Below, in pieces: positions 10,970-55,963 of a DNA stretch of 64,000 nt. Where the stretch lies: NCBI GenBank assembly GCA_021810905.1, contig JAJZQH010000003.1, positions 127,897 through 191,896 on the forward strand. The letters are read 5' to 3'. Each line of letters starts with the position of its first letter. Position 1 is the stretch's first letter. The DNA comes from a bacterium. GTDB taxonomy: Bacteria; UBA10199; 2-02-FULL-44-16; JAAZCA01. The notes below the pieces were generated by a model, which ran no database searches, was not told where the DNA came from, and was given only the letters and a program-made list of their open reading frames with translations. The translations under genes and the position numbers were made by a program.

Positions 10970-12000
10970 ACGATATGAAACAGATACTGCAAAAAATACT
11001 GAATGATGAAGTGAGTTCGACGGCGGAAATCTCCCAGCTAATAAAACTGCACGGCGACGCGTCCTATCGAACGTACTATCGCGCAGTTTTATCGGACGGA
11101 AACACTTTCATCGTAATGCAGATGCCGGAGGGAAAATCGTCAGTGTCCGAAGAAATCACCAACTTCAACGGTACGCACAAAGAGCTGCCGTTCATAAACG
11201 TAGAGCGTTATCTCTCGGGACTCGGGCTGCCAGTCCCAGCAATAAGATGTTACAGCGAGGTTCACCACCTCATGGTCCTCGAGGACCTGGGCGATAGGCT
11301 CATGGCGCGCGTAGTGGAAAACGCATCCGAACCGGAGCGCCTTCTGTGGTACAAGAAGGCCGTAGATCTTCTCGTTCTCATGCAGGAGCGCACGCGAAGC
11401 GCAGAAATCAAATCATGCGTTGCGTGCGCGCGTTCGTTCGACGCCCGACTGCTGAACTGGGAGTTCGATCACTTTCGCGAGTACGGCGTTGAGGCCAGGC
11501 TTGGCGCAAAGATGTCCGACGAAGACCTCCATATATTTGAGGAAGAGACGCGCGCGATAACAAGCGATATCGAACGCATGCCCCGCGGTTTCACTCATCG
11601 CGATTTTCAGAGCAGAAATCTCGTCATCAAGGACGATGATCTCTACATTATAGATTTTCAGGATGCCCTCCAGGGCCCTCGCGTATACGACCTCGTGGCC
11701 CTCACGCGCGATTCGTATGTCAAACTCGCTGACGATACGCTCGATGCGCTCATCGCATATTATGCTTCCAGGGTTGGAAGAGACGCGGCTTCGGTGCGAC
11801 GCGAATTCGACATGGTCACGGTGCAGAGAAAGCTCAAGGACGCGGGCCGCTTTGTCTTCATCGACCGCGTGAAAAAGAATCCAAACTTCCTGCAGTACAT
11901 CCCAAACTCCCTGGGCTATGTGCGGGATGCGTTCGCCAGGATGCCTGAGCGCGCGAGGCTTCGCGAGGTAATTGAAAAATATCTCCCGGAGTGGCGATGA
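10966..12000 (+). CDS. amgK: AmgK-like sugar kinase (aminoglycoside phosphotransferase fold)
   Basis: A 344-residue kinase of the APH fold with HGDASYRTYYRAVL near the N-terminus, the catalytic loop FTHRDFQSRNLVI and the metal site IIDFQDALQGPRVYDLV. AmgK phosphorylates N-acetylmuramate and N-acetylglucosamine at the anomeric carbon in peptidoglycan recycling. The assignment is supported by the next gene, a MurU-like uridylyltransferase, coupled by an ATGA overlap at 11997-12000, the arrangement known from Pseudomonas. Substrate is inferred from this pairing. Confidence 0.85.
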   Translation: MNDMKQILQKILNDEVSSTAEISQLIKLHGDASYRTYYRAVLSDGNTFIVMQMPEGKSSVSEEITNFNGTHKELPFINVERYLSGLGLPVPAIRCYSEVHHLMVLEDLGDRLMARVVENASEPERLLWYKKAVDLLVLMQERTRSAEIKSCVACARSFDARLLNWEFDHFREYGVEARLGAKMSDEDLHIFEEETRAITSDIERMPRGFTHRDFQSRNLVIKDDDLYIIDFQDALQGPRVYDLVALTRDSYVKLADDTLDALIAYYASRVGRDAASVRREFDMVTVQRKLKDAGRFVFIDRVKKNPNFLQYIPNSLGYVRDAFARMPERARLREVIEKYLPEWR

Positions 12001-12725
12001 ATTCTGAAATCGACGGCGCTATGTTGCTCGCAGCGGGCCTGGGCACGAGGCTCAGGCCGCTGACGCTTTCTACTCCGAAGCCGCTTCTGCCGCTTGACGG
12101 CTGCCTTCTTATAGACCATCAGCTGCGCTACCTGGCGAGAAGCGGAATCAAACGCGTTGCCATCAACCTCCATCACCTGGGCGATATGATCCGTGAGTAC
12201 GCTGGCGACGGATCGAAATATGGCGTGGAGATTTTCTATTCAGAGGAACCCAGGCTGCTGGATACGGGTGGCGGCATCAGGAAGGCGGCCCCATTCTTCG
12301 AAGGCAGACCGTTTCTGGCGCTGAACTCTGACGCGCTCATCGACGTCGACCTTGATGAGTTGATCTCGCGACATCAAAACTCAGGCACAGCGGCGACGAT
12401 GGTTCTCAAACCCCTTGAGGATAGATATTCGTACACGCCCGTCGCGGTGGACGATTCGGGCAACGTAACCGGATTCGGTTCGGGTCAATATTTCTACACC
12501 GGGCTGCAGGTGGTGAGCCCGCACATCGTAGACCTGCTGCCTCCGGCCGGCGAGTCGTCGAGCCTCATCAAGGACGGATATTTGAAACTGCTTGGGGGGG
12601 GCGGAAAAGTGGCCGCGTATATCTATCACGGATATTTCAACGATCTGGGCACCTTCGATCGCTACGAAGAAGCGAAGGGGGATATCGCCAGAGGCATGTT
12701 CAAATTGTTCACAGAAAAATCCTGA
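11997..12725 (+). CDS. murU: MurU-like nucleotidyltransferase
   Basis: A 242-residue sugar-1-phosphate nucleotidyltransferase with AAGLGTRLRPLTLSTPKPLL, EEPRLLDTGGGIRKA, LNSDALIDVDLDEL and a C-terminal FNDLGTFDRYEEA. In the AmgK-MurU bypass it would convert MurNAc-1-phosphate to UDP-MurNAc, recycling cell wall sugar. The ATG at 11997 has GGAG six bases upstream and overlaps the kinase stop. A mannose-1-phosphate guanylyltransferase-like role is the alternative. Confidence 0.85.
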   Translation: MNSEIDGAMLLAAGLGTRLRPLTLSTPKPLLPLDGCLLIDHQLRYLARSGIKRVAINLHHLGDMIREYAGDGSKYGVEIFYSEEPRLLDTGGGIRKAAPFFEGRPFLALNSDALIDVDLDELISRHQNSGTAATMVLKPLEDRYSYTPVAVDDSGNVTGFGSGQYFYTGLQVVSPHIVDLLPPAGESSSLIKDGYLKLLGGGGKVAAYIYHGYFNDLGTFDRYEEAKGDIARGMFKLFTEKS

Positions 12726-52645: not shown

Positions 52646-53587
52646 TTAGTTTACCTTCAGCTTCGCTCCGTCCAGCAAACGCTCACATATCTCGTCAAAG
52701 GTGATTCCAATATGGGCCGCAGCCTTCGGCACAAGCGAGAGCTCGGTCATGCCGGGAATCGTGTTTATCTCGAGGAAGTACGCCTCGTCGTCCGACGGCA
52801 CAATGAAGTCAGCGCGAGAAGTCCCGTCGCAATCGATCGCCGAGTAAATCTTGTGGGTCCATCGCTGCAGTTTTTCAGCCATTCCTGCGCCTATCCGGGC
52901 GGGCACGATATATTCCGTGGCGCCCTTCGTGTACTTGGATTTGTAATCGTAGAAGCCGCTCTTGGGAGCTATCTCCAGCGGCGGCAGCGTCTGCCCGTTG
53001 ATTATTCCCACCGTGATCTCCCGGCCGGGCAGATACTGCTCCACGAGTATCTTGTTGTCGGACTGCGCAGCCGTCTTCAGTGCCGGCGCGAGTTCGGAGG
53101 GCTCCTTCACAATCGTCATGTTGATCGTCGATCCCTCGCGGGAGGGTTTCACGATGACCGGCATTTTCATCTGGAGTTCCCGCACGAAGCCGTCGGCCGA
53201 ATTCTTCGAAGCGTCGAATACGGCGTCGCGGGGACACGGTATTCCCAGCTCCTCCGCGAGGCGCTTGCATACGATTTTGTCCATGCCCACCGACGACGCG
53301 AGCACGCCTCCGCCTGTATACGGGATGCGCATCATCTCAAGGAAACCCTGCACGCATCCGTCTTCGCCGAATTTACCGTGCAGCGCGATTACCGCCGCAT
53401 CCGGACGCGCGTCCTGAAGCGCGGCGACGAGGGCGTCGCCACCCTGCACGTCTATGGCTACTACGTCGTAGCCGCGGCGGCGGAGCCCTTCGGAAATCGC
53501 GTTTCCCGTGCGCAGTGAGATCTCCCGCTCCTTTGAAACGCCTCCCATCAGCACGGCGATTTTTTTGCCTTTCCACTTGCCTGCCAT
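52646..53587 (-). CDS. ddl: D-alanine--D-alanine ligase
   Basis: A 313-residue ATP-grasp enzyme making D-Ala-D-Ala for peptidoglycan. KIAVLMGGVSKEREISLRTG, ALHGKFGEDGCVQGFLEMM, the ATP site VIVKPSREGSTINMT, SRADFIVPSDDEAYFLEINT and PGMTELSLVPKAA are typical. The ATG at 53587 has GAGGA upstream. It lies between the MurB-like gene and ftsQ, as usual. Confidence 0.98.
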   Translation of the reverse strand: MAGKWKGKKIAVLMGGVSKEREISLRTGNAISEGLRRRGYDVVAIDVQGGDALVAALQDARPDAAVIALHGKFGEDGCVQGFLEMMRIPYTGGGVLASSVGMDKIVCKRLAEELGIPCPRDAVFDASKNSADGFVRELQMKMPVIVKPSREGSTINMTIVKEPSELAPALKTAAQSDNKILVEQYLPGREITVGIINGQTLPPLEIAPKSGFYDYKSKYTKGATEYIVPARIGAGMAEKLQRWTHKIYSAIDCDGTSRADFIVPSDDEAYFLEINTIPGMTELSLVPKAAAHIGITFDEICERLLDGAKLKVN

Positions 53588-53639: not shown

Positions 53640-54536
53640 TCACCGCTCGCCGATAACTTCTATCATCGGAACGAGCGTAATGCCGGTCTGCTCCCTGACG
53701 CGGTCGCGGATCAGATTCATGAGGACCGCGATATCGCGAACCGTCGCATTTCCGTGATTGACGATGGTGTTTGAGTTCCCGGTAGAGACGCGAGCGCCTC
53801 CCACGCGGACTCCCGCGAGTCCGGAATCGTCTATCAACTCCGAAGCCGCCGAGCGGCACGGACTCGCGAACACGCCTTGCAACTGCGGCATGTCTTCCGC
53901 TGCCGCCGCAGCCTTGACCTCGGTGACGGCGCCAGCGCGAGAGAGCCGGAACAGCGCGCGAATTATCGCGGACGTGCGCGGTATCTTGATCCGCCCTTCT
54001 TCCAGACGCAGCGCGCTGCGCCTGAGCGTGAGCTCCTTGCCGTCCTTGGTCAAGATAGTCATCTCCTCCAGCGCGGGGAACGGCTCGTCGCCTTCCGACA
54101 CGGAAGACGCGCTCAAGAATCCACCGACGGTTCCGCGTTCGGATGCCAGTCGATCGAGACCAGCGAGATTCTCGCCTGCGCAGAATCGCCACACGTCCTG
54201 AGCCGCGGTCGCCGCATGGCACGCGACGAACACCTCTTCTCCGGACGCGCGCTCGATCCATGCGCGGTCGAACCCGGCTCCCAGCGCCAGGATCATTCCG
54301 CGAACGCCTCTGTCGCGGACGATAATCGCGCTGCCCTTGCCCCAGAAACGAAAGTCCACGCCGCGCTCCACGGCCCAGCCGACCGCGCGTTTGAGTTCGC
54401 CCACGTCTTCCACCGTGACAAATGCCTCTGCCGGACCGCCCGCGGCGATTGCGCTGTACGAAGACATCGGCTCGTCGAAGCGCACCCGCCCCTCGGGAAA
54501 TAGCGCCGCGAGTTCGGCGCGCTGATCGCGGCTCAT
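53640..54536 (-). CDS. murB: MurB-like protein lacking canonical catalytic residues
   Basis: A 298-residue homologue of UDP-N-acetylenolpyruvoylglucosamine reductase in the usual murC-murB-ddl place. FAD-domain features remain: SSYSAIAAGGPAEAFV, FRFWGKGSAIIV and a GTVGGF loop; the C-terminal DDSGLAGVRVGGARVSTGNS is also typical. But the motif carrying the catalytic Ser (GSxFKNP) reads GVFASPC, the YRxSxF motif is missing, and the late Glu position appears to be Met (LVPMIEVIG). The NAGAYG stretch is also absent. The start at 54536 has AGGA upstream. MurB activity should be considered unproven. Confidence 0.8.
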   Translation of the reverse strand: MSRDQRAELAALFPEGRVRFDEPMSSYSAIAAGGPAEAFVTVEDVGELKRAVGWAVERGVDFRFWGKGSAIIVRDRGVRGMILALGAGFDRAWIERASGEEVFVACHAATAAQDVWRFCAGENLAGLDRLASERGTVGGFLSASSVSEGDEPFPALEEMTILTKDGKELTLRRSALRLEEGRIKIPRTSAIIRALFRLSRAGAVTEVKAAAAAEDMPQLQGVFASPCRSAASELIDDSGLAGVRVGGARVSTGNSNTIVNHGNATVRDIAVLMNLIRDRVREQTGITLVPMIEVIGER

Positions 54537-54595
54537 GCACCGTTCCTGCTCCGACTGACGCTCGAAGCGGGCGCGCAGCCGCGGAGGCAGCGCCG

Positions 54596-55963
54596 TCAGA
54601 TCAAGCTCTTCGCATACGTCTTCGCCGCCTGGGTTATGCTCCCCGCCCCGAGGAAGAGGATCAGGTCCTCTTTCCTGCACCACGGCGCCAGAGTCGTCTG
54701 TACGTCCTGTCCCGTCGGCGCAAACGCCACCATCTTCTTCGGATAATATCTGCACATCTCTTTCCATAGTATCTCCCCCGTGTAATTTCGCCTTGGCTTT
54801 TCGCCGGCTGGATAAACTTCCATCACTACTACCGCATCGGCATCTTTCACTGAAGTTACGAACTCATCGAAGTGATCTGCGAGCCTCGAGAAACGATGAG
54901 GCTGAACCACGGCGACCACGCGCTTCTTCGGCCATCCGGAGCGTGCGGCTGCCAGAGTGGCGGCTATCTCTACGGGATGATGGGCGTAGTCATCCACGAC
55001 CATCGGACCCGATTTAGATAATATCTGGAATCTGCGCGCAACTCCTTTGAAAGTCTTCAGCGCAGCGCGGATCGTTTTGAAGGGAATGTCGAGGTGTCTG
55101 CTGACCGCTATCGCGGCGAGCGCGTTGAGCACCTGGTGCGATCCGGTCATGCGCAATACGACCTCGCCCATCGGCTCGCCTCTGAAGAGGGCTTCAAAGC
55201 GAAGGAGATCTCCCTCCTGATCTATCCCGCGCGCAGTGAAGTCAGCGCCCGCGACTCCGTAGGTGATCACCGGCCTCTTGATGCGCGGCAGAATCCTGCG
55301 CACTACCGGATGAGCCGTGCACGCCACGACCGCGCCGTAGAATGGAACCTTGTTTGCAAACTCCACGAAGGCACGCTGCATGTCGTCGAAGCCATCGTAG
55401 TTCTCCATGTGCTCCGGATCGATATTTGTGATCACTCCGATGGTCGGCGCCAGTTTGAGGAAGGATTGATCCGATTCGTCCGCCTCCGCAACGAGATATT
55501 CGCCCCTGCCCAGTCTCGCATTGGAGCGGAGGTTGTTCACTCTCCCGCCGATGATGATGGTCGGATCGAGACCCGCGCGATCGAGCACGCAGCCGATGAG
55601 CGAGGTAGTGGAAGTTTTTCCATGAGTGCCAGCCACCGCCACGCCGTATTTCATGCGCATCAGTTCCGCCAGCATCTCGGCGCGCGGAACGACGGCGATA
55701 CCCAGCCTGCGCGCCTCGCGCACCTCCGGGTTATCCTCCGGCACCGCTGAAGATACGACCACGACGTGTGCGCCGTCTATATTCTGGCGTCGATGACCCG
55801 CGTGGACCTTGGCGCCCAGCCTCTTGAGGCGCTGTGCAGTGGGACCGCTCTTGAGATCGGATCCGGTCACTCGGTAGCCAAGGTTGATGAGCACCTCCGC
55901 GATGCCGCTCATACCTATGCCGCCAATTCCCACGAAGTGGATCTGTTGGTACTTTTTAAACAC
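54596..55963 (-). CDS. murC: UDP-N-acetylmuramate--L-alanine ligase
   Basis: A 455-residue Mur ligase that adds L-Ala to UDP-MurNAc. The N-terminal FVGIGGIGMSGIAEVLINLG, ATP loop VAGTHGKTSTTSLIG, EADESDQSFLKL and VVDDYAHHPVEIAATLAAAR are clear. Start GTG at 55961-55963 overlaps the end of murG by 8 bp with AAGGGG/AAAGG ahead. Confidence 0.98.
   Translation of the reverse strand: MFKKYQQIHFVGIGGIGMSGIAEVLINLGYRVTGSDLKSGPTAQRLKRLGAKVHAGHRRQNIDGAHVVVVSSAVPEDNPEVREARRLGIAVVPRAEMLAELMRMKYGVAVAGTHGKTSTTSLIGCVLDRAGLDPTIIIGGRVNNLRSNARLGRGEYLVAEADESDQSFLKLAPTIGVITNIDPEHMENYDGFDDMQRAFVEFANKVPFYGAVVACTAHPVVRRILPRIKRPVITYGVAGADFTARGIDQEGDLLRFEALFRGEPMGEVVLRMTGSHQVLNALAAIAVSRHLDIPFKTIRAALKTFKGVARRFQILSKSGPMVVDDYAHHPVEIAATLAAARSGWPKKRVVAVVQPHRFSRLADHFDEFVTSVKDADAVVVMEVYPAGEKPRRNYTGEILWKEMCRYYPKKMVAFAPTGQDVQTTLAPWCRKEDLILFLGAGSITQAAKTYAKSLI

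Follow-up and report, generated by a model that had tools for sequence, protein, structure and literature searches.

A candidate MurB pseudoenzyme maintained at the murB place of a bacterial dcw cluster

The closest described relatives of the protein reported here, P0001, are the MurB enzymes solved as 3tx1, 4pyt and 1hsk. P0001 shares their fold over its whole length (Z 32.8-33.4), both of their Pfam domains and the dcw position, but it lacks the catalytic Ser/Cys, Arg and Glu and the NAG motif, and it scores below the equivalog cut-offs. In Escherichia coli MurB, Arg159 and Glu325 contact the substrate carboxylate (PMC12844806, partial text), and the title of a reference in the same partial text names Ser229 as the general acid. 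The E. coli S229A protein (1uxy) is a laboratory removal of this proton donor in a fold common to P0001 (Z 27.8), whereas P0001 is also without the Arg and the Glu, and is so in its natural state. Two other systems offer parallels. Tannerella forsythia, a MurNAc auxotroph, resembles one of the relatives discussed below (genome G005) in lacking murA and a working murB and in depending on salvage; it is reported to have no murB (PMC5790795, partial text), whereas G005 keeps a degenerate copy and its MurC, MurD and MurE were also not found. In the available part of PMC6420597, Bordetella pertussis MurG is modelled as a scaffold, a wall enzyme doubling as an assembly platform, which is close to the structural role we favor for P0001, except that MurG is an active enzyme and P0001 has lost its catalytic residues. 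The same part describes how MurB and other Mur enzymes of Caulobacter co-localise with MurG, for which a scaffold role is proposed, and how Mur complexes are proposed as well. In the literature searched, from which subscription papers were mostly beyond reach, we found no description of a MurB pseudoenzyme or inactive MurB paralogue.

The window, by which we mean the whole 64,000-nucleotide stretch analysed, carries on its minus strand a dcw cluster in the order MurE, MurF, MraY, MurD, FtsW, MurG, MurC, P0001, Ddl, FtsQ, FtsA, FtsZ. These names were given by eye, and the order is backed by matches of the same proteins, used as queries, in related genomes; the dcw setting was checked in ten genomes (the window's and nine others) of the 40 in our MurB alignment. 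P0001 is a protein of 298 amino acids encoded at 53640-54536 (minus strand; ATG at 54534-54536, stop at 53640). Its upstream neighbor is MurC (54596-55963, minus strand), for which related genomes have matches in the corresponding position, and its downstream neighbor is the D-Ala-D-Ala ligase Ddl (52646-53587, minus strand; named by eye, with homologues at the same place in relatives). The gene thus sits, as an earlier note on this DNA had said, in the place of murB.

By domains, alignments and structure model alike, P0001 belongs to the MurB fold. Both domains, FAD_binding_4 (PF01565, 47.6 bits) and MurB_C (PF02873, 67.9 bits), score above their cut-offs, and the protein falls under both NCBIfam murB equivalog cut-offs (92.9 versus 144.5 bits; 158 versus 259 bits). 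An AlphaFold2 model built with 40 sequences as input has a pLDDT of 91.9. When it is compared with solved structures, the 13 top rows are all MurBs (Z 27.1-33.4), the best being 4pyt (Z 33.4, 2.0 A over 290 residues); the first non-MurB folds are other flavoproteins at Z 15.7. This comparison is a global match, and the placement of individual residues comes from sequence and profile alignments with 12 solved MurB sequences and 43 other MurBs of the phylum.

In these alignments none of the three catalytic residues is found at its site. The catalytic Arg column holds Gly181 (codon GGG, 53994-53996, minus strand), with EG in place of YR; the proton-donor Ser column holds Gly221 (GGC, 53874-53876, minus strand), where QGVFASP replaces GSVFKNP and the Lys and Asn have also become Ala224 and Ser225; the catalytic Glu column holds Met291 (ATG, 53664-53666, minus strand), with PM in place of PE/TE. 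The altered Ser, Arg and Glu motifs that had been picked out by eye are therefore borne out. Arg182 and Arg187 were considered as a relocated catalytic Arg and rejected, since neither is shared across the degenerate copies described below. Codons 144-146 (54099-54107, minus strand) read SSV where intact MurBs carry NAG. The earlier note had listed NAGAYG as lost, which holds for P0001, but that exact motif is not the local norm, the intact first copies of the phylum having mostly NAGTxxG. The predicted FAD elements are partly retained, as also proposed before: GxGSN reads GKGSA (GSN to GSA), while GTVGG, G66 and G68 are kept. Of 49 columns that are at least 94% conserved in 35 intact first copies, P0001 keeps 28. 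All 35 of these copies retain the Arg, a Ser or Cys, and the Glu, and judged from the alignment their loss in P0001 is far beyond chance. We infer, with strong support, that P0001 is catalytically dead.

How common is this condition in the phylum? We aligned 44 MurBs from 40 genomes (40 first copies and four second copies). The Arg of YR, the Ser/Cys of GSxFKNP, the C-terminal Glu and the NAG motif are all kept in 39 of the 44, and the five that fail are all first copies: the dcw copies of the window genome (G000) and of G001, G002, G003 and G005. The first four represent all four sampled genera of the window's family, f1; G005 belongs to the neighboring family f3. In this order of genomes the Ser site reads G/R/H/H/A and the Glu site M/V/A/R/K. 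The FAD motif GSN is altered in all five, and each keeps between 26 and 33 of the 49 conserved columns. For G003 the loss of the Arg is ambiguous because its placement differs between alignments (present at the catalytic column in one, beside a gap; displaced in another); its Tyr, Ser and Glu are lost. Among intact MurBs of the same order, Cys replaces Ser at the proton-donor column in G004, G006, G007 and G008 (GCxFKN/GCxFRN; L071, L070, L074, L075). G042 has two MurBs (L192, L193), with the catalytic residues present in both.

Each of the five degenerate copies has an uninterrupted, full-length frame and lies in dcw order. Between G000 and the four others, fourfold-degenerate sites are 19-38% identical and second codon positions 60-71%, and the proteins are 38-50% identical; FtsQ from the same operon is similar in this respect, with 39-47% identity at the protein level between G000 and G001, G003 and G005. 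With fourfold sites saturated while the protein is still 38-50% identical, the substitution pattern shows that the degenerate MurB and its operon place are maintained by purifying selection. In six of six family pairs the C-terminal part shows greater similarity than the remainder; since the same pattern is seen in three of three intact pairs, it marks no region newly constrained in the degenerate copies.

If the dcw copy does not act, another enolpyruvyl reductase would be needed, as the earlier note had foreseen, and one was found. The window genome (99.5% complete) has a single canonical MurB on another contig (G000:C11:90904-91755, 204 bits), in which NAGAYG, YR, Ser and Glu are all intact. 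A canonical second copy is present in three of the four family f1 genomes (G000, G002, G003) and was not found in G001, which is 95% complete. That missing gene may be an assembly gap, because two of 29 good genomes of the phylum (G010, G026) have no MurB at all and yet have at least part of MurA. In G000 and G003, the two deep branches of the family, the second MurB has the same neighbors (scpA, scpB and an Rlu-type gene, named by eye), which suggests that it predates the family split. The family's second MurB and the second copy of G042 stand apart from the first copies of the phylum; the first copy of G042 is intact.

G005 presents a different case. In this genome (97% complete) no other MurB was found. 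Its operon (L214, L069; G005:C9), with genes named by eye and by tblastn, reads MraZ, RsmH, FtsI, MurF, MraY, FtsW, MurG, degenerate MurB, Ddl, FtsQ, FtsA, FtsZ; it is contiguous, MurE, MurD and MurC are missing from it, and there is no room for them between the neighbors. A search of G005 for MurC-family proteins yielded only two (an Mpl-like protein and MurF), against six to eight in the other eight genomes. The Mpl-like protein scores 376.0 bits for mpl (cut-off 388.7) and 339.7 for murC (cut-off 335.1). MurA was not found either, although at 97% completeness it could in principle sit in a gap. Without MurA the MurB substrate has no known source, and yet the degenerate MurB is present. G005 retains an LD-carboxypeptidase and neighboring AmgK-like (128 bits, cut-off 550) and MurU-like (172 bits, cut-off 250) genes, both below their cut-offs. 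By the predicted functions of these genes, it is probably a wall-salvaging bacterium that recovers MurNAc and wall peptide. An AmgK-like phosphotransferase gene also adjoins a MurU-like nucleotidyltransferase gene in the window (10972-12689, plus strand), and this pair suggests MurNAc recycling in the window genome too.

Did the loss in G005 arise separately? A tree of dcw neighbors places G005 with the intact G007 and G008 (97/98), inside f3 (98/98). The MurB gene trees weakly group it with the family f1 copies (91/96, 85/93, 79/93; 56/77 in the widest set). AU tests do not reject a grouping of G005 with the intact f3 copies (p 0.148; 0.225 without the motif columns), and grouping it with G007 and G008 alone gives p 0.064 (0.085 without the motif columns). 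Because the MurB trees lean to one degenerate clade, they do not prove an independent origin in G005.

Similar losses were seen in other phyla. Among 73 loci found by scanning named genomes, 68 keep the Arg, Ser/Cys and Glu; as the scan was guided by patterns taken from the degenerate copies, the counts cannot be read as frequencies. The five exceptions are L089, L101, L151, L142 and L143, of which L142 and L143 read YDxSR, keep the Cys and Glu and are not counted as degenerate. In L101, from Myxococcota MAG.506, the Arg, Ser and Glu columns are occupied by Gly, Gly and Ala, and the gene lies in a full dcw cluster; the second MurB of this genome has YR, GSFF and PE. L151, from a proteobacterial MAG, holds at 2233-2763 an in-frame MurB remnant of 176 amino acids between MurC and an FtsQ-like gene; about 135 middle residues are gone and the C-terminal domain is kept. 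No other MurB was found in that genome, for which completeness is not given. L101 and L151 are sister rows (99/97), and a single clade of the degenerate and Myxococcota copies is not rejected (p 0.323).

P0001 probably also has an N-terminal extension (CEELDLTALPPRLRARFERQSEQERC; 54537-54614, minus strand), a conserved peptide that overlaps the 3' end of murC in another frame. The peptide preceding MurB, xDLxxLxPRxRARxER, is conserved in eight of eight genomes of families f1 and f3 and absent in G004. In the window, the frame upstream of the P0001 start is open through the 3' end of murC (54537-54767, minus strand). In G005 the extension is preceded by AAGGGGG, which resembles an RBS, and by an ATG, and it reads PRERARLER, which is f3-like and unlike family f1; for the extended G005 protein, prediction from its single sequence gave a poor model (pLDDT 34.7). 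In G001, G003 and G006 there is no ATG, GTG or TTG at the apparent MurB start, so the start there is provisional, or there is a frameshift.

What might a MurB without its active site do? The earlier note had left the choice between a pseudoenzyme and a MurB with different chemistry. In the five copies, no common replacement has taken over at the lost columns, which favors a pseudoenzyme and ranks altered chemistry low. A reductase that works on the normal substrate, or a related one, through other residues would fit the retained fold and the partly kept FAD site (GTVGG, G66/G68), as well as the failure to detect another MurB in G001 and G005. We nevertheless hold this quite unlikely, given that GSVFKNP has lost its Lys and Asn along with the catalytic residues, that three family f1 genomes have a canonical MurB, and that no MurA was detected in G005 to make the substrate. 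Loss of the same Lys and Asn, of the substrate-contact Arg and, in all five copies, of the normal GSN motif also speaks against a non-catalytic regulator that would bind a UDP-sugar or flavin and tune the neighboring enzymes; the MurB fold, the partial FAD motifs and an operon shared with MurC and Ddl make such a protein conceivable, and we regard it as unlikely rather than far-fetched.

The gene might instead be a decaying relic, kept just for operon structure or for translational coupling with the overlapping murC. The N-terminal extension with its murC overlap could be taken in this sense, as could the proteobacterial MAG in which only the 176-residue remnant is left, its middle deleted. 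We give this little credence: the frames are full-length in five genera with silent sites saturated at 38-50% protein identity, and the G005 operon has lost murC yet retains MurB, with a clean start. The genomes are many-contig assemblies, several of them fragmented, which raises the question of an assembly or binning artefact; this is hardly credible, since five assemblies of the order share the change in consistent dcw contexts, and it appears in a separate Myxococcota record.

We think it fairly probable, on this evidence, that the dcw MurB of family f1 is a pseudoenzyme kept for a structural role in a cytoplasmic Mur/division complex. The second, canonical MurB would reduce enolpyruvyl-UDP-GlcNAc; with it present, the dcw copy has lost its proton donor, the substrate-binding Arg, the Glu and the NAG motif, and it has probably been retained for a non-catalytic part in the cytoplasmic Mur/division assembly, perhaps docking partners encoded alongside, e.g., MurC, Ddl, MurG or FtsQ. 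The same loss in relatives, in one case after loss of the pathway, suggests that MurB has a second, non-enzymatic job. It is tempting to go further, though here we are more doubtful than convinced, and to suppose that MurB has an old wall or division role independent of catalysis, so that its active site decays once a second MurB takes over (family f1, Myxococcota MAG.506) or the pathway is lost (G005), while the dcw operon goes on encoding the protein; this would have happened in two or three separate events.

It is not settled whether the soluble Mur enzymes assemble into a functioning complex, and a structural role is hard to split from an essential activity. Nature appears to have made this split here, in a MurB-shaped protein without the chemistry that is selected in a division operon. 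The scaffold idea is directly testable with a protein that is unable to act by catalysis. For annotation there is a warning as well: a gene at the murB place need not be MurB.
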